Assembly (NCBI GenBank): GCA_021292105.1
Contig: CM037860.1
Coordinates: forward strand, 16,882,698 to 16,946,697
Direction of reading: 5' to 3'
DNA from: Anadara kagoshimensis
Lineage: Eukaryota > Mollusca > Bivalvia > Arcoida > Arcidae
DNA length: 64,000 nt
How positions within the stretch are numbered: the first letter of the stretch is position 1; each line of letters starts with the position of its first letter. The translations under genes were made by a program, and so were the position numbers. This document shows, piece by piece, positions 15,101-52,800 of this stretch. Under the pieces are notes generated by a model. The model was not told where the DNA came from. It searched no databases and saw only the letters and a program-made list of their open reading frames with translations.

Positions 15101-18100
15101 CTACTACAGCTACAAGCAAATGACTTTCTCTACTTTTAGAGATTTCTTTTATGTTCTACACATCTGTATCAAATTCATTTTGATTTAACTGTTTTAGTGT
15201 TATTATCTTCCATGAAATGTTTGAAAAGGATAAGCAGCTTTGTTTCCTCCAATGTTTACTCACTTCTTCCTCATTGTGTCCAGAAAGCCTTTGTAGCCAA
15301 AAGGTTTGAAGCCCATGCTTATGGCCTAGGTTCAAATTCTCTGAGAAAGTTTGTCACTTGGCTTTTTGAAGGTTGGTAGTTTTCTTTAGCTGAGCCAATA
15401 CAACAATTTTTACTACACTATGACTCAACCCCTTATTATTTTCAGGTGAACTTTTGCTTGATATTTTGCTCCATTTAGTTACTGTTTTAGTATAATGCAT
15501 TTCACATTCACACCACATTTATTTATCTTACAGACATATGAACAGACAACAGTTGTTACAGCTTACCGATCAGTCTACTTGGTGTAGACAGTATGTTCAA
15601 TATGACTGCTATGATGCTCCATTAAGGTAAGTTATGATAGCACAAATCACTTGATTTTAAAGATGTTCCATTTAAAAGGTTCCTTTTGGTTTTTTATTTC
15701 AATAACCAAAGATGAAGTTTCTATGCCTTTTCTATTTTTTGTCACTTCACCTATAGCCGGTGAGGTCTGAATGGAGATGCAATATTCTTGACGTAAATCC
15801 CCATTCAAACTATCGAACCTACGAAAATTGAGTGAATGTTAGTTGTTTTGAAACTGTTTGGCCATGCCTCGGGAGCATTTTACCTGAGAGTTTTAGAGTT
15901 CTTCTGCCAACATTTTGTCTGTCACTTTTCTTGAAAACTATCTAACAGATCTTTATGAAACTTCTCAAGAACAATCTTTGGGCGGATTAGACATGCCATT
16001 GGCTGTTTGTATTTTGATCATGCACATGGTTAGGAAAATAAAAATGTTTTGTTTTCGGGACACTTGAAATGACATCCCATTTTAGTAATATACACATAAC
16101 TTGTTAATTTTATATTTGACAGACTCGGTGATGAGACATATTTCAAAGCAGTTAATGGGGAGGTTATAGAATATATAGGTGCTGATAAACCAGGGAAATG
16201 TCTGTGTTCATTAAATTCATCATGTGCTCAAGATAAAGGTTGTAACTGTGACTCAAGTAAGTATTATTATAATTATACCACATTTGTTAAAAGAGGGGTT
16301 TAAACTGGTTTAACTCTGTCCTTCCATCTGAAACAAAAATTTTTGTAACGTAATGGTCCGATGGGTCAGTGATCCATGGAACTGCTGTTCCTGTGAGCAT
16401 TGCAAGTTACAGACCTGTTTACTATTACGATTTTGGCGTAATTTCTACACTTTTCATGTCTAAAATACGCTATTACACACGCCAGCCCCATATTACGCTC
16501 CTAAACAAATTTCAGAAATTTTACCCGTTTTCGTTTCCAATTGTCATACTAGACACTCCTCGAGTTACTGCCCTTGATCTTAAACATGTACTGTGTGTAA
16601 AATGGTCAATTGCGACTAAATTTACGTTGATTAGTGTTTAACAATGGCTGAAAAACGTGCACATGAGGATGAACTTCATGTTGAAGAACAAGATAATAAA
16701 AGACAATGTATCTATACAAAACAACGGTACAAGACTGAATATAATGCGCTATGGCCATCTTTAGGACCATCCTCGAAGGGCGAAAGTTATGTTCACTGTG
16801 CCATGTATAATTCCGACTTTTCCTGCGCCCACTCGGGATAGTATGACTAGAAAACACATCCAGACGAAATTGCACAAGGATTTTGAAAAAACAAAACTGA
16901 GTCAGAATTCGATAAAAATATGTTTGAGAAGATCGATAACAAAGAATCCAGTGAAAAAAACATTTAGAAGGCAGGTGACGGCTGCCGAAACCAAAAATGA
17001 AAATGTGTGAATTAATTTGTGAATTGATTATACATGTATGTATACAATACAGTTCTGTTTTTCCATGTCTTTAATGACTATATAATAAAAGATTTACTCA
17101 AATTTATATTATTAGTAGTAATATTATCATTTCCAGACAACGTTTAATGCATTACACGTTCAGCCCAAAAATTACACTTATTTTAGAGATTTTCCTCTCT
17201 GATTACACTTCGTCAAAAAAAAAGGGTAAACAGGTCTGAAGTTATGGTCAAACAGGGGTAATCTGACTGACATTAGAACCACAGTGCAAAAATTAAAATG
17301 TGCCCAATACAAGCCTTAGGTTTATTAAAGGTGTCTAATATAGTGAATTGTTCAAAACTCTTTAGTAAATTGCACATTTTTAAACAGTTTTAGCAGGCAC
17401 AATATACACATAGCTTTTACTGCAATAAATGTGTGATTAAAATAGATTTCTGTCTGGATGAAGATTATTTCACTTCTATCAAGAATTTCTTTGAATTGAA
17501 TATGTGAACCAGTTTAGTCTGAAGGTATACCCAGAATTTTTTTCTCATTTTCAGGTATGAAAAATTGGCAGCAAGATTGTGGTTATAACACAAAGAAGAC
17601 ACAACTCCCAATAACAGAGGTAACAGTGTTACAGAGTACTGGTACTAAGAAATCATCAGCCAAAGCTATGTTAACACTGGGTCAACTAGAATGCTGGGGA
17701 ACTAGTAAGTCATTATGTTATATGTACACTTGGTCATCAGCCAAAGCTATGTTAACACTGGGTCAACTAGAATGCTGGGGAACTAGTAAGTCATTTATGT
17801 TAAATGATCAGCTAAAGCTATGTTAACACTGGGTCAACTAGAATGCTGGGGAACTAGTAAGTCATTATGTTATATGTACACTTGGTCATCAGCTAAAGCT
17901 ATGTTAACACTGGGTCAACTAGAATGCTGGGGAACTAGTAAGTCATTTATGTTGAATGTACACTTGGTCATTGGCTAAAGCTATGTTAACACTGGGTCAA
18001 CTAGAATGCTGGGGAACTAGTAAGTCATTTATGTTGAATGTACACTTGGTCATTGGCTAAAGCTATGTTAACACTGGGTCAACTAGAATGCTGGGGAACT

Positions 18101-21100
18101 AGTAAGTCATTTATGTTAAATGATCAGCTAAAGCTATGTTAACACTGGGTCAACTAGAATGCTGGGGAACTAGTAAGTCATTTATGTTGAATGTACACTT
18201 GGTCATCAGCCAAAGCTATGTTAACACTGGGTCAACTAGAATGCTGGGGAACTAGTAAGTCATTTATGTTAAATGATCAGCTAAAGCTATGTTAACACTG
18301 GGTCAACCAGAATGCTGGGAAACTAGTAAGTCATTATGTTAAATGATCAGCTAAAGCTATGTTAACACTGGGTCAACTAGAATGCTGGGGAACTAGTAAG
18401 TCATTTATGTTGAATGTACACTTGGTCATCAGCCAAAGCTATGTTAACACTGGGTCAACTAGAATGCTGGGGAACTAGTAAGTCATTTATGTTAAATGAT
18501 CAGCTAAAGCTATGTTAACACTGGGTCAACTAGAATGCTGGGGAACTAGTAAGTCATTTATGTTAAATGATCAGCTAAAGCTATGTTAACACTGGGTCAA
18601 CTAGAATGCTGGGGAACTAGTAAGTCATTATGTTAAATGATCAGCTAAAGCTATGTTAACACTGGGTCAACTAGAATGCTGGGGAACTAGTAAGTCATTT
18701 ATGTTAAATGATCAGCTAAAGCTATGTTAACACTGGGTCAACTAGAATGCTGGGGAACTAGTAAGTCATTATGTTAAATGATCAGCTAAAGCTGTGTTAA
18801 CACTGGGTCAACTAGAATGCTGGGGAACTAGTAAGTCATTTATGTTGAATGTACACTTGGTCATTGGCTAAAGCTATGTTAACACTGGGTCAACTAGAAT
18901 GCTGGGGAACTAGTAAGTCATTTATGTTGAATGTACACTTGGTCATTGGCTAAAGCTTTGTTTACACTGGGTCAACTAGAATGCTGGGGAACTAGTAAGT
19001 CATTTATGTTGAATGTACACTTGGTCATTGTCTAAAGCTATGTTAACACTGGGTCAACTAGAATGCTGGGGAACTAGTAAGTCATTTATGTTGAATGTAC
19101 ACTTGGTCATTGGCTAAAGCTATGTTAACACTGGGTCAACTAGAATGCTGGGGAACTAGTAAGTCATTTATGTTGAATGTACACTTGGTCATTGGCTAAA
19201 GCTATGTTAACACTGGGTCAACTAGAATGCTGGGGAACTAGTGAGTCATTTATGTTGAATGTACACTTGGTCATTGGCTAAAGCTATGTTAACACTGGGT
19301 CAACTAGAATGCTGGGGAACTAGTAAGTCATTTATGTTGAATGTACACTTGGTCATTGGCTAAAGCTATGTTAACACTGGGTCAACTAGAATGCTGGGGA
19401 ACTAGTAAGTCATTTATGTTGAATGTACACTTGGTCATTGGCTAAAGCTATGTTAACACTGGGTCAACTAGAATGCTGGGGAACTAGTAAGTCATTTATG
19501 TTTTTTGTACTGGTACGTTTGATGTAAAAATAAACTTTTGTAGATATTGATTTAGAATTTATTAAGGAATAATTTTCTTAAGTTGATGGTACCACTGTGG
19601 TAGCTCAGTTGGTAGAATGCTCGCTCCGTAATTGGGAGGTTGTGGGTTCAATCCCGGCCGGGTCTGAGCCAAGACTTGAAAGTGGGTAGTATCTGTTCTT
19701 CTGCCAAGCACTCAGCATTACGAAATGAAAGTCACAGTTCTTTCGAATGGAAACTTAAAATAAACGAGGTCCTGTGTCATGGTGGGCTTAGCACACTAAA
19801 GAATCCTGCTGTATAATGCCATCAGTGCAACCCACTGTCTCGATATAAGTGAAATATTCTTGACTGGGACGTTAAACACCATTACTCAACTCAACTCTTA
19901 CATTGATAGTGTACTGTACCACTACATACCGGTAGGTCAGTGTGTAGAATTCTCACTTTGTATGTGGAAGGTCATGGATTTGAATCCTTGCATGGGTCAT
20001 GGGGTCATTAGTTCATTAATGTTTTGCCAAATGACACCATTGTTAAAGCCTTACTGGGCCATATTAAACATTATCCAAATACAAAATATTTTGATGTTAT
20101 GGTGTTCAAGAGGAAAAATCCTAGATTGAACACTGTTCTTTTATTGTCTTTTAGATCGAAAAAGTCCAGCTAAGTCGGTAACATTTAAAACAGCAACATC
20201 ATTTATACAGTTAATTCCATGGACGTCTGGTGATTTACAGTTTAGTTTCCGTACTCATCAACAGAGGGCACTTCTCTTATATCAGAGTGCTGTTTCAGCA
20301 AACACCAATTATTTGAAAATAACCCTTATGTCAGGTATGTTATATAAATAGACTGAATTGATGACATTTACATGGCAGAAGTCATAGCAACCAAGAACTA
20401 AATAAGAAAAGAAAAGAAAGCAAGTAAACATTAACAGAACAAAAAAGATAATACATGTCATGGATTTTCAACTTTAGTATCGTTTTTTCAATGTTTTATA
20501 AGCCAGATATTTAAAAAAAATCTTGGGTTCAACTCATGAAGAGCCTTTATTTAAAAAAAAAAACCAAACAAACAAACAAACAAAAACACTTAAGATCGCT
20601 GGATTAAATTTTCAAATGTAGTATTCTTAAGTTTTGGAAGTAAAGTTATATTTGATTGAAAAACAATTTGTGGATAGAACTTTGAAAATTGTGTTGTTAA
20701 AAAATTTATCAAAAGTAGCAGAAGTTTACTTGATTTGGCTAATTTCAATAATGCTTTTAAATTGTTTCAGCTACTAAAATTAGATTCCAGTTTCATATTA
20801 GTGGATCAAGATTTAGAAAGGATTTGGAATTTAGTCGGCCATTGAACACAGGAGACTGGCAGTTAGTTACTGTTGAAATAGACAGATATAACATTCGGTG
20901 TAGTGTAAATAGCAAACAGGAGATGTATAATATACCAAAGGTTTTATCATCCAGACCAACATTTAGTGGTGTATTGTTTATTGGTGGACATAAACCTGAG
21001 TAAGTATTATTATAGTCTGCCCATGCAGTGTTTTTTACAGGTTTTATTGATGACCCTCTACCCTGAAAACTGGGGTCATTTATCAGTTTAAGGGGTCATG

Positions 21101-24100
21101 AAACTAATCCTAGATTTTTCGTAATATTGACAATAAAGAGAATATACGGTATACCATAAGACAACCAGGGATATTTGTTAAGCTTTGTAGCCATCACTTC
21201 AAGGTCAGGATTATCACCTTGTGCCACAAGTCTGTCAGGCTAGACTGTTTCCATTATGACAATTTTCAGGATTCGCTGATTAACTTTTATCAGGTTCTGT
21301 ATTTGAATTTGAATGTAACCTAACTAAGACAATTTTCAATTTGAAAGTTAAATATCTTTTCTTATCACCATCACAGAATTAGATTTTACAAAATGTTATA
21401 CATGTACATATTGTAAAATGTGAAATTTTTGTGTAAATTGCGAGTTAGAAAAAAAAATATCCAAAATTGATGTGCAAAAATTAAAATTGATCAAATAAAA
21501 AATGCAGTTCACATGTAAGTACACATGGAGTTGCACCTGATGAAGGGAGAACAGGTGATTTTACTTGCATACCTATACAAATTGAAATAAGGGGCTTACA
21601 ATAAGATACCACAAAATAACTTTGATAGAAGTCTCACGGAAATACCATGTTGCAAAAATTAAGTGCTTTACAGTAGTTTTCACATTTCTTTATTCTATCA
21701 TCTGTTCTTCTATTTTCAGGATCACGCTGGATGATACCACTGGTTTAGTTGGATGTATGCGTGGATTGATGTATAATGACAAATACCATGACTTAACAAC
21801 CTTCATTGATCCCAGGTAATCTAGCAGTAATATGGAATTTTGATTTACCGTAAACTTTTTTTTCTCATAAAGTGCATATTGTATAAGAAGAAACATACAC
21901 AAGGAAATAAAATATTTGCAATTTTAACAGTGTGTCACGTGATACTGCAAATACCCAGGCCTTTTATGGGAAAATGTTTACTAATATCCAATGGAAATTA
22001 TACCTCTTAATTATTTATTTAGTTAATTAATATATTTTCATTCTTTATATGGGAAGTTCTAAAATTTTAACATTTTATTTAACAGTACCACTGGCATTAT
22101 GAAGGGATGTACAGCATCTTGTTGGACAAATCCATGTAAAAATGGTGCAGTGTGCATTGAAGAATGGGGACAGTATAGGTGTAACTGTACCAACCCATGG
22201 GCTCACTCTGGACATAACTGTGGTTTCAGTAAGTACTGGTATACACATCTTATATATATCAGTCCATGCCAAATGGAGGAGTATTTGATATACATAGTGC
22301 CAAGTATACAGAGCTTTTATATGAAGGAGGGGTATTTGATATACATTGTGCCTAGTATACAGAGCTTTTATATGCCAGTTCATACCAAAAGGAGATGTGG
22401 CACCCAGTATACAGAGCTTTTATTTAAGAATTGAATTGCACTTTTTACGTTGTTATCGGGGTGTAACAACGTAAAAAGTGCAATTCAATTCTTATAATTA
22501 CAAACCCAAAATTTAACATTTTTTTAAAGCTGACCTACATTTCTGAACTGATCAGCTGATTTTCAGAAAATCGACGTTACAAGGCTGAACTGCGTAGTGA
22601 TACAATAAATGGCATCTTTATGAAACGATAAAATATCCGATAAAAAAGCTTAAATAGTTTTGAATTTAAATCTTTTTATTCATTTTTTAGTTATTTTCAA
22701 TCAACATATAAATTGTTACATTTTAATTCATTGACAAAAAGGGATTATATTATGTCTCGCAATCATGAAAACAAACAACACTTTGTACAACGTCATACGT
22801 GACGGCCAAACGTTTGTAGGACAGGCGTGTTTACATTTTGATTTTACCCATAACATAAGAAAAAACTGCATTGGTTGAATGAACAGTGTGTTAAACAAAC
22901 CCTGAAACCAACTATTGACATGGAATTAATGTTTTCTTGGATGAATCAATGTTTTACCACCTATGGAACGGATGTGAGATGGATTCTGTCACCGGTGGTA
23001 GCTGTATGGGCTGATCAGGGACATTTTGAGAAGGTAAACAAGCGGTACGGGTGAATTTTAGGTTGGAATATAGATTTAGTATGTTATCAATTTTATTAAA
23101 TTATTATTGGCAGGCCTACCACTGTCATTATCATCAAGATCCAGTTCAGAATCAACCATCTGACTTATCTGCACACTGGCATTGCATTCTTCAAAATATT
23201 TATCCTGATCCCCGGCTATACATTGTCTGGGGGGAAATAAAATGTCTTTGCTTTCAAAAGGATGCGTATGTGATGAATTTCAAACAAAACACCCCGCACT
23301 GAGGTTTGGCATCCGAGAATACCATAGTGCGTGTCATATTGCTTATACTTAGTAGCAAGTAAAATGCTCGGTGACGATAAAATGTCGATTTTGAAAAATA
23401 TTTCATACAATCTTAAATGTAAATTATTAAAAATATCGGTGAAAATTAATCAGAACATGTTTGAATTAATTTTTCAAAATTTGAATTTATAAAAAAATCG
23501 AGGTATTTTAATGTTTCTATGTGAAATCGTTCCCGACCTCCCTGTTTGTTTACAATCTTAAAATGGCTGTTCAGAGATGGGTAATCCCCGAAACAGGCCC
23601 AAAGTAGTTTCGGTAGAAAACGTTGTTATTGGAAAATAACACCGTGTTTTTGCAAGACGACAACCAATGAAAATGCTCCAAACTGTGTAACAACGTGAAG
23701 TTTGTAATTATATGACAATCCATCTCAAAAGGAGAGGTCTTTCATATACATAATGCCTGTTATACAGAGCTTTTATATGACAGTCCATACCAAAAGGAGA
23801 GGTCTTTACATAATGCCTGTTATACAGAGCTTTTATATGACAGTCCATACCAAAAGGAGAGGTCTTTACTATACATAATGCCTGTTATACAGAGCTTTTA
23901 TATGACAGTCCATACCAAAAGGAGAGGTCTTTACTATACATAATGCCTGTTATACAGAGCTTTTATATGACAGTCCATACCAAAAGGAGAGGTCTTTACT
24001 ATACATAATGCCTGTTATACAGAGCTTTTATATGACAGTCCATACCAAAAGGAGGTCTTTACTATACATAATGCCTCTGTGATTGAGGCAGTTGGTTCTG

Positions 24101-46800: not shown

Positions 46801-49800
46801 GCAATTTGATAAAACTTCTGCAAAAAAAAAAAAAAAATAACAAAATAAATAAATCCCCTTTTACTAATGTTTCTAACACCTGCTTTGCAAGATAGGATAG
46901 AGCTACATCTGTAGACAGACAGCATCACCTTTTTTCAACACATGACTTACTATTTTCTCTGTTAGTCTCCAAAAACATAATTTCCATGTTGAACATATGC
47001 TAGGAATACTGACAGTGAATAAAGTAGTGAATAGATGATCATCTTATGAAAAGAATTAACCTAAAACATCCTATAAGGTAAAAAAACTAATGATTGAAAA
47101 AAAAAAAAAAATACTCATGCAGAAATGAAAACATTACTTTGTAAAAAAAAATTGCAAAAATGCAATGCACCCATTTGACTTGGACTAGACTTGACTATTG
47201 TAGCTTGCATCTTCCATTGTGTAAAAAAGAAAAAGAGGACAACTCATGTTGCACCCCATATGTGGACATGAATATTATTTTGAATGGTTACACAAACACC
47301 AAATAACAGATTGTTGCAAAGTTTATTTATAATTTTTACATTTTACATTTGTGTATTTACAGAGGTAAAGTTTGTCCCTGTATCTGGAGATACATACAGA
47401 ATACAGTCCATGAAAAATTTACGAAACGGCTTAAATGATATCACTGTGTATGGCGATCAAGTGGTACAGTGCTCTCCATTAGATATGGTACCTGAACTAG
47501 TGACGCCATCACCATCAACAGTTGTTACAACAACTCAAACACAAAGTACACAGGTAAATATTTTAGTTATACAATAAATTCACTCAGGTAAAGAAAAAAA
47601 GAGGTTGGGAGTCAATACACACACATGGACATACAGAGAAAGAGAGAGAGAGAGTAAGTAGATTTCTATTACTAGCAGCCGAAATCGTCATTCAAACCTG
47701 TCTATAAAGGCCACCCAAGGGGAATCGGTTAAAGTGACCTTTATGGACAGGTGGTCTTTACATATAGGTTCAAATAAGATGAATAAAGAACAATTGGGAT
47801 TAAATTTTACTGGCTTTTATAAGCAGGTGGTCCTTATATAGAGGTGGCCTTTAAGACAGGTTGAACTGTTCTTATTTCCTAGCAATTCCTTCAAAAAGTA
47901 ACCTATTTTGGCAAATTTAAAAAAAAATACTTTGAGAATGACTTATATTCTCACAATTTTTTTTTTAATTTAGCTTCTTATAAGTTTTAATTTGTGGAAA
48001 CCTAAGATAGTAATGATTGGAGACAATATATGTGGTAACTCGGAATCCTTTGTCAGGAAAATGTCGTAAAATACTTTTAATGTCTCAAAGTGTATTCTCA
48101 ACAATATTGTCCATTTCCTTCCACAAAATAAGATATGCATTTTAAGTTATATACTTAAAATTTGATATTTGAAATTTACTTTTATTTATCTAGAGTACTT
48201 TGAAGATGCCACCTTGGAATCCTGGTCCTCCAGAGATTATATATTTGAGTGGTACTCCAGCACCACCGACTTTACCCAGTACTACCACAACTACCACCTT
48301 AAGGACAACTTTACAACCCACCACTAAAGGTGCTGGTAGTAGTAACATGACACGGGCCATTATGGATATACCCAGTAATAGTGTTGATGAGAAGACTATA
48401 GGTATGTCATAGGTCAAATGGCTGTCCCAGGTTAATAGGGTTATGGACTAGTACTTATTCTGGTTTTTAGCTCGACTAACTACAGTAATAGTGTTGATGA
48501 GAAGACTATAGGTATGTCATAGGTAAAAGGCTGCCCCAGGTTAATAGGGTTATGGACTAGTGCTTATTCTGGTTTTTAGCTCAACTAACTACAGCAATAG
48601 TGTTCATGAGAAGACAATAGGTATGTCATAGGTAAAAGGCTGTCTCAGGTTAATAGGGTTATCGGACTAGTACTTATTCTGGTTTTTAGCTCAACTAACT
48701 ACAGTAATAGTGTTGATGAGAAGACTATAGGTATGTCATAGGTAAAAGGCTGTCCCAGGTTAATAGGCTTATCAGACTAATGCTTATTCTGATTTTTAGC
48801 TCAACTAACTACAGTAATAGTGTTTATGAGAAGACTATAGGTATGTCATAGGTAAAAGGCTGTCTCAGGTTAATAGGGTTATCAGACTAGTACTTATTCT
48901 GGTTTTTAGCTCAACTAACTACAGTAATAGTGTTCATGAGAAGACTATAGGTATGTCAATGGAATTTCTGTTGTTAGAGGGAAGTACATGTAGTAGTATA
49001 ATGTTGAAGGCTGTCCCAGGCCGATATAGTGATAAAATCAGCACTCATTCTCATAAAATCACATGAGATTGCAACATCCCCCCCTCAGAAAATTATCCAT
49101 TAAAGGATTTTTTTCTTGTTGAAAAATTCAGCATTTACACAAACTTCACCAATAGCATAACATCTGTTGTAAACCTATCTGATTTTCAAAATTCACAAAT
49201 AATTAGATTTTTTATGATTGATATTGCCTTGCATAGTTAAACAATTTGTTATTAAAAAAAATTAGTTCAAAAATTGATCCTGTAAGAGTGGTGTGCAGTA
49301 ATGGTGTTTTATGACCCAGTCAAGATTCTTTCACATACAGCAAGGAGGGCAGCTCTGGGATAGCAGAGGAACCAGAGTGAATGGAGAATACCATCAACTT
49401 TCGGCAAGCTAACTGACAAATTTTATCACACTAAGATTTGCCTGAACAGAATTCAAAACTTGTTGGTGAGAGGTACAGAGATCCATTAACACATGCTCCC
49501 TATTTTGGCAGCAAACAATTGGCAGTACAACTGATGTCACTTTAAACAATAATTTACTCGTTTACTCGCACATCACTCATTCACTCATCATCACACATTC
49601 ACTCAATTTACTCTCTATTTCAGCTATAGCTCTAGCATTAGTGACATTTTTCTTCCTGGCTGCCATTATGATAGCATTCCTATTGATTCGACTCAGACAC
49701 AGGCAAAGTTATAGCTTAAAGAAGAAGAACCCAGATGATTTTGAGATGAAACAGCCACTTAATCAAGCTGCTAGTCCTATGATGAGGTCACACTTGGCTA

Positions 49801-52800
49801 CATTTGATGAATTTAGCATGGTTTCTGCTACAATAGGACGTAAGTATAATGCTCACAAACACACACTACAAAGTTTAATTGGTTAATTGGGGGGGAGGGG
49901 GGGGGGTGATTAGACTAGAGCCTTTGCAATATGGAATTTTTGTTTTGTTTTGGGGGAAATTAGGAAAATCTAATGTTTCAGAACCTAAAAATAATTCTGA
50001 TATACAAATCATAATAAAAAATAAATTTATTTTATCTTCAAAGAATACAGGTTAATTTAAACCCCAAATTAAGCAAAAAATTACTGCACATTCTCTACAA
50101 ATTGTAGCTTTTATTGAAAAGAAACAGCAAGTTATTGGATTTAATTTAATCCGTATTTGTGCATATTTTCAGCTTCAATGAGAAGAAAAGAAAATGGTAC
50201 TAAGTTAGAGGTAAGAGTTTGAATATTATATTTTGGATATTTCTTAGTAAAAAGTTTGTATTATGTATTTAGATTTTAAAAGTATTTATTTCTTATTCCA
50301 TACCATGAAATATGCCAAAACCTTCCTCTGCATTTAGTTCAACTGGCAATTGACAGCTGACAAGGTCTGTGGTTTTCTTTCTGGGTACTTTAATTCCTTA
50401 CCCATCAAAGAACTGATGTCAATATAAGTAAAACAATTTTGATTAGATGTAAAATCCGAATTACCCCATCCTGCCTATTAATATTTGATTTTCATTTCAG
50501 CCATATTCAGAGGATATGCCTCCAGATTATCCAATGCGTTTATTTAATCAAAAGAAAAACAGACCTGCATCATCTATATCTGAAGTATTAGAAGAAATGG
50601 AAAGACAGAGAAAAGCTAAAGGTAAGAGAAGGATTAAAACATATTGTGTTTAAAATAATGACACTGGGGTTCTCCCATATATCTGACCTTCACTCATATG
50701 TTCCCATTATATTTTATTAATTCAATATTGAATCATCTTGAATAGCTGGAAAATTGCTGATGCGACGTAAACAATATTACAATATCAGTTTTGAAGGTTG
50801 TCTTATTTTTTAACAAATAAACATATATCAAGTGTTATCAATAGAATTTTACTCACTAGTTGAGACAGAATCATTTATCAATATTAAATTATACACCTGT
50901 ATCCTGGTAGGTATTGGACGATTTGCCTTGGATAGTTTTAAATGCTCTCTATTACTTCGTAGCAAGGGGTTTCTACTAAAAAACAGTTATAGATTTTAAA
51001 ATTAAATATAAAATATTAATTTTTTAAACAGTCACAACTTTTCTTGTTTCAAAATTGAAATGTCACCTGTATATCATAAATATATTGGTAACAGTTTTTC
51101 CTGACATTTCAGAAAACTTGTTTTAGTTTTATTGTATTTTGGATATCTAATAGCACACCCGAACTGTGTATATTTCTCATAATTGTAACCTTTTCTTTCC
51201 ATTTATGAAATCAGAGGCAATAGAAAATCTAATTCCATTGTTTAAAGAGCTAAACAGTAGTGGATGTTCCACCTCAAATGTGTTTTAAGAATGTTTATGT
51301 TTTCATCAGTTTATGAGGTATATCTTTGTTGAATGTGGATAAACGGCATACTAACTTTATTACACTGGATTGATACAACTATAATCAGGTTTTCTTTGTA
51401 AATGTACTGGATTTTTCCACATCACTATGTAACATAAAATTGCAACCATTCTACAGTTTACCATAACAAAGTTTTTCTTGTTAATGTATTGGGTTTTTCC
51501 GCAACACTTGTGTGTAACATAAAATTGCTGCCATTATATAATATACTGTTTTATGTAAGCTCTAAAGATCTTATATGTTAATGTAAATTGAAAATAATCC
51601 TGAATAATTATGTTTGAGGAGAAAATCAATTTCATGCCCTCTCCAAGCACAACATGCCTGTGAAAAATAGGCAAGGGGGTTAGCAGCTGTGCAATGTGAT
51701 CAACACCCATTAACGTTACTGTGGGACATTTGGGAAAACATTTATCTTGTGAATTCCTGGAATAAAGTAGTTTTTATTTTGAAAACTTGAACTGATATGT
51801 ATATCCAATAAAAAATAATTATTCCACAGAAACATTAAGGGTATCATGTTGTACAGTGGCAAACCTCATTGAATGAAAGTAAGGATAGTTTTCTGGGTGA
51901 ACTAGCATCTTAATATTATCCCTAGTTTGGAAGACCCAGGGCCAATGTTCATACAGCCAGCCAGTTATGGCCGCATCAGGGATCCTAATTTGATCAGACT
52001 GGTGTGGGCTTGTTCAGACCTATGCTCATATGCACAGATAGTTATGGCCACATCAAGGGAGCCTAATTTGATCGGACTGGTGTGGGCTTGTTCAGACCTA
52101 TGCTCATACACACAGATAGTTATGGCCACATCAGGGGAGCCTAATTTGATCGGACTGGTGTGGGCTTGTTTAGACCCCTGCTCATACATACAGATAGTTA
52201 TGGCCACATCAGGGGAGCCTGATTTGATCGGACTGGTGTGGGCTTGTTTAGACCCCTGCTCATACATACAGATAGTTATGGCCACATCGGGGGAGCCTAT
52301 TTTGATCAGACTGGTGTGGGCATGTTCAGACCCCTGCTCATACATACAGATAGTTATGGCCACATCAGGGGAGCCTATTTTGATCAGACTGGTGTGGGCA
52401 TGTTCAGACCCCTGCTCATACATACAGATAGTTATGGCCACATCAGGGGAGCCTATTTTGATCAGACTGGTGTGGGCATGTTCAGACCCCTGCTCATACA
52501 TACAGATAGTTATGGCCATGTCAGGGGAGCCTAATTTGATCAGACTGGTGTGGGCTTGTTAAAGACCATTCCTCACATACAGATAGTTATGGCCACATCA
52601 GGGGAGCCTAATTTGGTCGGACTGGTGTGGGCATGTTCAGACCCCTGCTCATACCTAAAGCTAGTTATGTCCACATCAGGGGAGCCTAATTTGATCAGAC
52701 TGGTACGAGCACTTCAGTAAAGTATTACAAAATGTAGCCAAAACTAATAAATCCTGCACTGTTCTTGGTAGGTAGGGAGAATGGTGATGGTCATGGGATT

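Follow-up and report, generated by a model that had tools for sequence, protein, structure and literature searches.

A 24-copy minisatellite seeded at an exon/intron boundary in Anadara kagoshimensis

The array and the gene that carries it

In a 64,000-nucleotide stretch of Anadara kagoshimensis DNA (assembly GCA_021292105.1, contig CM037860.1, positions 16,882,698 to 16,946,697; hereafter the window, whose numbering is used throughout), a gene predicted to encode a membrane protein carries a minisatellite of 24 copies, the exon's own among them, that starts within a coding exon (17555-17704) and reaches into the following intron. Each unit comprises the last 52 bases of the exon (from 17653), the donor CTA/GTAAGT (the slash marks the exon/intron boundary) and a spacer, and the units are arranged head to tail (Table 1). 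Within them, a 49-nt core (GCTATG...GTAAGTCAT) is found 24 times, with starts running from 17665 to 19447. Units are either long (81-82 bp) or short (70-71 bp), reflecting spacers that differ by about 11-12 bp; the two kinds are intermixed in copies 1-15, and copies 16-23 are 82 bp throughout. Tandem Repeats Finder reported a period of 82, 21.8 copies and 93% matches at 17811-19502, calling a start later than the true one.

The copies are nearly uniform. Twenty of the 24 cores are identical to the exon copy, and the six substitutions in the remainder are spread over copies 9, 16, 18 and 21, with encoded amino-acid changes in copies 9, 16 and 18. The donors, which start at 17705, 17786 and so on to 19487, all retain GT; the hexamer is GTAAGT in 23 of them and GTGAGT in copy 21. 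The window's + strand contains GTAAGT at 52 places, of which 29 are not in the array. Six substitutions over 24 x 49 core positions would be expected to hit a GT dinucleotide only about 0.25 times (2/49 x 6), so 24 intact GTs out of 24 require no selection. The intactness of the donors reflects youth and not demonstrated selection.

A sequence-only reading of this stretch had placed the seed of the repeat at an exon/intron junction and had attached only the first copy to the upstream exon and acceptor; both points are borne out by the core copies, their positions and the reading frames. Its account of the unit as exon end, donor and spacer also stands, with the shared stretch amounting to 52 exon bases instead of roughly 45, as does its count of 24 donors, one of which is not GTAAGT.

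We searched the genome (1.1 Gb, 36 contigs) for the unit, passing over very common words, and obtained 24 matches, every one at the array locus; within the reach of that search, a dispersed origin of the unit is ruled out. The assembler might have inflated or invented the copy number, given that several other loci are doubled in an assembly that may not be perfectly clean. However, the unit variants are interspersed and not copied as one block, the locus is present once, inside a 59-Mb contig, and the 1.8 kb involved is shorter than usual long reads, all of which makes an artefact very unlikely.

A laminin G domain begins in the downstream part of the gene, and EGF matches occur in other frames of the region. 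The solved relatives of the product are neurexin-1 chains (five matches, the best stretch lying within query residues 110-222); the query included about 12 residues between two exons that are intronic (exon end 16256) and fall outside the matched part. By eye, a membrane-spanning stretch with a short tail can be read at 49470-49886. From these features the product is taken to be a neurexin-superfamily membrane protein, and the gene itself points to an animal host. It may be a CNTNAP, axotactin or neurexin-IV (CNTNAP-like) protein.

Table 1. Features of the array, its host gene and the duplicated exon boundaries found elsewhere in the genome (L numbers denote surveyed loci)
Feature	Position in window	Strand	Remarks
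Upstream coding exon	16123-16256	+	acceptor TTTGACAG, donor CAA/GTAAGT; frame-compatible with the seeded exon; one of 38 frame-keeping boundary pairs, picked for its consensus-like signals
Coding exon seeding the array	17555-17704	+	150 nt; open frame MKNWQQDCGYNTKKTQLPITEVTVLQSTGTKKSSAKAMLTLGQLECWGT; predicted from sequence
Direct repeat GTACTGGTAC, first copy	17636-17645	+	10 bp, exonic, immediately upstream of the unit; candidate founding slippage site
Minisatellite, 24 copies	17653-19502	+	exon 3' end, donor and short intronic spacer; spacing 70-82 bp
Donor 1	17705-17710	+	CTA/GTAAGT; presumed authentic 5' splice site
Donor 2	17786-17791	+	use would add 81 nt in frame (27 residues) to the exon
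In-frame TAA	17824-17826	+	would be reached by transcripts using donors 3-24; stop at residue 89 for each; open reading frame 17518-17826
Donors 3-24	17857-19492	+	first bases 17857 to 19487; GTGAGT in copy 21 (19241), others GTAAGT
Direct repeat GTACTGGTAC, second copy	19507-19516	+	immediately downstream of the final unit
Next coding exon	20155-20334	+	180 nt; acceptor TGTCTTTTAG, donor CAG/GTATGT; start of laminin G domain
L058, donor twice			41-bp duplication over CAGAG/GTATAT; second donor GTTTAT
L078, donor twice			exon end and donor ATAAG/GTAAGAG again 71 bp downstream, with a second GTAAGA
L126/L127, exon end twice			second copy 66 bp downstream, without donor
L120, acceptor twice			acceptor boundary again 166 bp upstream
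L067, exon end five times			CCAATGGCATAAG/GTGGTT, including the exon's own; ATT runs between copies

Predicted consequences of donor choice

When spliced in silico from donor 1, the transcript keeps its frame with nothing inserted, the exon frame (17557-17704) continuing through 20155-20334 and then 20771-21000. One of the 23 extra donors (donor 2) could lengthen the protein and the other 22 share one premature stop, the frame read onward from copy 1 closing in copy 3; transcripts from donors 3-24 would presumably be truncated and sensitive to nonsense-mediated decay (NMD). The real exon and acceptor are attached to copy 1 alone, and the extra copies sit in an existing intron. This intronic position, with the real acceptor upstream of copy 1, is probably why the array persists.

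The repeated donor, CTA/GTAAGT, agrees with the consensus on its intron side and deviates from the usual one at exon positions -1 and -2. Calculated pairing with the U1 5' end gives -5.6 or -5.7 kcal/mol across the 24 donors and is stronger at two further donors in this gene, where it reaches -8.3 and -7.0. Because the 24 are nearly equal, copy 1 is distinguished by the exon that it produces, with a predicted length of 150 nt against 231 to 1932 nt for the other donors; exon definition should therefore favour donor 1. Strong use of the extra donors is also disfavoured, because 22 of the 23 give the same premature stop and because mirages, the name given in amphioxus to exon/intron boundaries duplicated in minisatellite fashion, reportedly leave regular splicing undisturbed, according to the available text of two papers (PMC3087553, PMC3902484).

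The same donors could be read as a functional rheostat, which would divert some transcripts to donors 2-24, with copy number tuning the output between an isoform longer by 27 residues (donor 2) and NMD-bound transcripts (donors 3-24). Twenty-three of the 24 donors are identical and the remaining one is also a good donor, the stretch added through donor 2 keeps the frame exactly, and a single stop is shared by donors 3-24. Boundary repeats elsewhere accompany altered splicing: in genes of human segmental duplications, internal tandem repeats at exon-intron boundaries are described, in the part of the report available, as affecting the splicing pattern (PMC2812944), and an intronic variable number tandem repeat (VNTR) is said in the title of another paper to affect ABCA7 splicing (PMC5954066). 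However, what argues for a functional splicing effect in this sequence is the presence of the sites themselves; their intactness is accounted for by youth, an added unit is expected to be in frame by chance one third of the time, and the normal splicing reported for mirages points the other way. We consider such a role improbable.

Alternatively, those units in which CAG precedes CCAAAGC or CTAAAGC might be 45-nt in-frame cassettes, each a micro-exon with its own acceptor and donor. CAG is correctly placed at 14 of 23 pattern matches, one of which is the exon itself (the pattern missed copy 19), and the CAG stands 45 nt before the donor, with phase 1 at both ends. However, pyrimidine content before these CAGs is 0.45-0.60, compared with 0.75, 0.80 and 0.60 for three real acceptors, and the introns between units, at ca. 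25-37 nt, would be too short to be spliced, so that we give this arrangement hardly any credence.

Origin of the array and boundary duplications elsewhere in the genome

We surveyed 130 exon loci through three Pfam families (50 laminin G, 60 kinase and 20 tyrosine phosphatase), of which 107 are independent by similarity. The loci were taken from the matches listed for each family (50 of 63 laminin G, without the window's own; 60 of 141 kinase; 20 of 150 phosphatase), the kinase sample consisting mostly of partial-domain matches picked by hand, with the cluster on contig C2 excluded. A duplicated exon boundary was found at six of the 130 loci, amounting to five independent cases when the sister copies L126 and L127 are counted once; the match end is not always the exon end, which makes this rate approximate per true boundary. 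Four of the cases are exon 3' ends and one is an acceptor, and all are smaller than the array (Table 1). No boundary duplication was found at the 20 phosphatase loci. The boundary filter had a limit of 35 bp, below which 14-15-bp matches at L094 and L139 fell, and the loci L095 and L096, which passed it, were set aside by eye as a kinase-like fragment that contains an in-frame TGA and is flanked by minisatellite blocks.

The small cases differ in what has become of the second donor, which among the two-copy cases is weakened in L058, missing in L126/L127 and kept in L078. The L058 duplication is absent from the near-identical sister L059 and so seems to be a two-copy case that has only just arisen. 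A gene and its sister duplicate probably account for L058 and L078 (C4, 25.86 and 26.05 Mb). At L067, we placed the boundary at AAG/GTGGTT, which as a donor would be weak. Apart from these cases, array length differs between the sister loci L053 and L054, at 2.9 and 4.9 units.

Boundary duplication at five of the 107 two-ended exons is not above the direct-repeat background, and is rather less: direct repeats were found at 36 of 395 sampled window points (12 in the array; 24 of 383 without it) and, beside the laminin G loci, at 20 of 330 flank positions. The window is rich in minisatellites. The small survey suggests that in a genome with many minisatellites duplicated exon boundaries can be an everyday side product, and the 24-copy array looks like the extreme of an ordinary process.

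The best explanation, and in our view a likely one, is that the array is a recent, near-neutral mirage, with the first donor favoured by exon definition and minor leakage to the others. Its founding event would have been a local tandem duplication straddling the 3' end of the coding exon and its donor, possibly through slippage between the two 10-bp GTACTGGTAC repeats. Minisatellites can be born through slippage between short direct repeats, and the flanking pair suggests such an origin here. Growth to 24 copies would have followed by unequal exchange or slippage. The acceptor before 17555 would pair with the first donor, and intron removal would take the downstream copies along. Any leakage to donor 2 would yield the 27 in-frame residues, and leakage to donors 3-24 would lead to the stop at 17824 and, probably, to NMD.

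Several points weigh against this explanation. The use of donor 1 is something we infer from the DNA. In classical experiments with duplicated 5' splice sites, splicing can go to the intron-proximal one, a preference that would here benefit the late donors, and the context of the repeated donor is moderate, so competition from 23 copies could matter. With respect to the founding event, a shared stretch of at least 10 was found in 1 of 2000 shuffled flank pairs and in 45 of 3715 pairs of real window stretches; since 45 real pairs match as long, the flanking GTACTGGTAC copies are only suggestive of slippage. The long spacer gave no significant trace of the predicted founding junction, its middle part being equalled by 1507 of 20000 shuffles and by 1366 of 20000 random 21-mers taken from the window (in-array draws skipped, denominator kept). 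Finally, the comparison of boundary duplication with the direct-repeat background is rough, its two tests, one of points and one of exon ends, being similar but not identical.

Other observations concern the surveyed contigs. At L057, an array containing CAGGTCTGA (22 copies of 20 bp, at 2136-2584) begins a short way past an EGF-like exon and does not overlap the matched exon. On C2 (G000:C2:37.368-37.477 Mb), kinase-domain frames lie in tandem, many of them 1.84 kb apart and 19 at an identical top score. The family PF00005 was left out of the survey, 15 of its 19 listed matches sitting on the bacterial-looking contig C22. Six of these 15 ABC-transporter matches (G000:C22:18324-717109) have an in-frame TGA, and a kinase match there has two; C22 looks like a bacterial symbiont or contaminant contig, perhaps Mollicutes-like, in which TGA would encode Trp. 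Gene pieces with equal or near-equal scores are doubled 0.2-2 Mb apart on C14 (68.1/70.2 Mb), C15 (40.26/40.48), C17 (49.98/50.37), C4 (25.86/26.06), C19 (28.37/29.84) and C8 (49.04/49.72), and may be either retained haplotypes or recent segmental duplications.

The surroundings of the array are also repetitive. Just upstream of the seeded exon, 17000-17239 is a dispersed repeat; 39 further copies scored 91-99% identity (40 of 332 candidates scored). Judged by eye, the adjacent frame at 16635-16841 resembles a fragment derived from a transposon. Immediately 3' of the array, 19590-19890 has a tRNA-like head and a tail and by eye resembles a short interspersed nuclear element; ARAGORN with bacterial settings found no tRNA there. 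Two minisatellites that share a unit (22275-22420 and 23708-24076) flank about 1.3 kb starting with an inverted repeat at ca. 22425-22495, and by eye this segment seems to be a mobile element that has split a single older array. That older array starts about 45 bp after the donor of another exon.

Comparison with known systems

The array presents 24 near-identical 5' splice sites in one intron, set apart chiefly by how far each lies from the acceptors on either side, and is a natural experiment on the parts of exon definition and site proximity in donor choice, whose predicted outcomes (27 residues from donor 2, a common stop from donors 3-24) could be counted in cDNA. More speculatively, it might return variant exon ends to the gene by gene conversion, leak the isoform with 27 extra residues and tune the share of NMD through copy number, with boundary duplications being a routine, reversible step in the exon/intron evolution of this genome; we think this larger picture doubtful. 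The interpretation given in the sequence-only reading, in which the spliceosome has to pick among 24 equivalent donors and array length may differ between individuals and alter splicing, was partly supported and too strong. That reading had also treated the structure as singular; the array belongs to a known kind, the mirages, and smaller cases recur in the same genome. What is new is the number of copies, 24, and this recurrence within one genome. The amphioxus genome is about half the 1.1 Gb searched here.

Our comparison covers open-licence papers, and we do not claim that published cases outside amphioxus are absent. Among other systems, the human segmental-duplication genes also have tandem repeats at exon boundaries; however, the available text concerns paralogues with transcript support in which novel introns form (PMC2812944), whereas the array is a single locus seen as DNA, with no new intron predicted. 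Tandem duplication copies splice signals in a potato RdRp gene (PMC4974935) and in Cryptococcus (PMC2395259); unlike those systems, as far as the accessible parts of both reports describe them, the array lengthens an existing intron, with no new one predicted inside the coding segment. The ABCA7 VNTR is likewise an intronic repeat array linked to splicing, judged by the title and the start of the abstract (PMC5954066). A paper on C. elegans minisatellites near alternative exons was considered and, from the portion available, set aside as only loosely related (PMC4039745).

The closest likeness is to the amphioxus mirages, which in the available text are described for Adh3, the globins BflGb6 and BflGb9 and troponin C, with similar imperfect repeats in PGBD5 (PMC3087553, PMC3902484). 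In both, tandem repeats span an exon/intron boundary (in amphioxus on the donor or the acceptor side) beside the authentic exon and carry splice signals: the unit of the array crosses the boundary of a predicted exon with 52 exon bases, donor and spacer, lies head to tail beside it in 24 copies, and holds GT in all of them and GTAAGT in 23. The globin paper, in the part available, puts forward the idea that new introns can come from mirages and notes that their extra signals could act as cryptic sites (PMC3087553). According to the same partial sources, the array differs in its gene, in its size, with 24 copies compared with six and three units in the BflGb6 haplotypes, and in its donors, all 24 being intact whereas many, not all, amphioxus copies carry splice signals (PMC3087553, PMC3902484). 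Allelic instability and normal splicing are reported for the amphioxus mirages, whereas the array is known from the sequence of one assembly.

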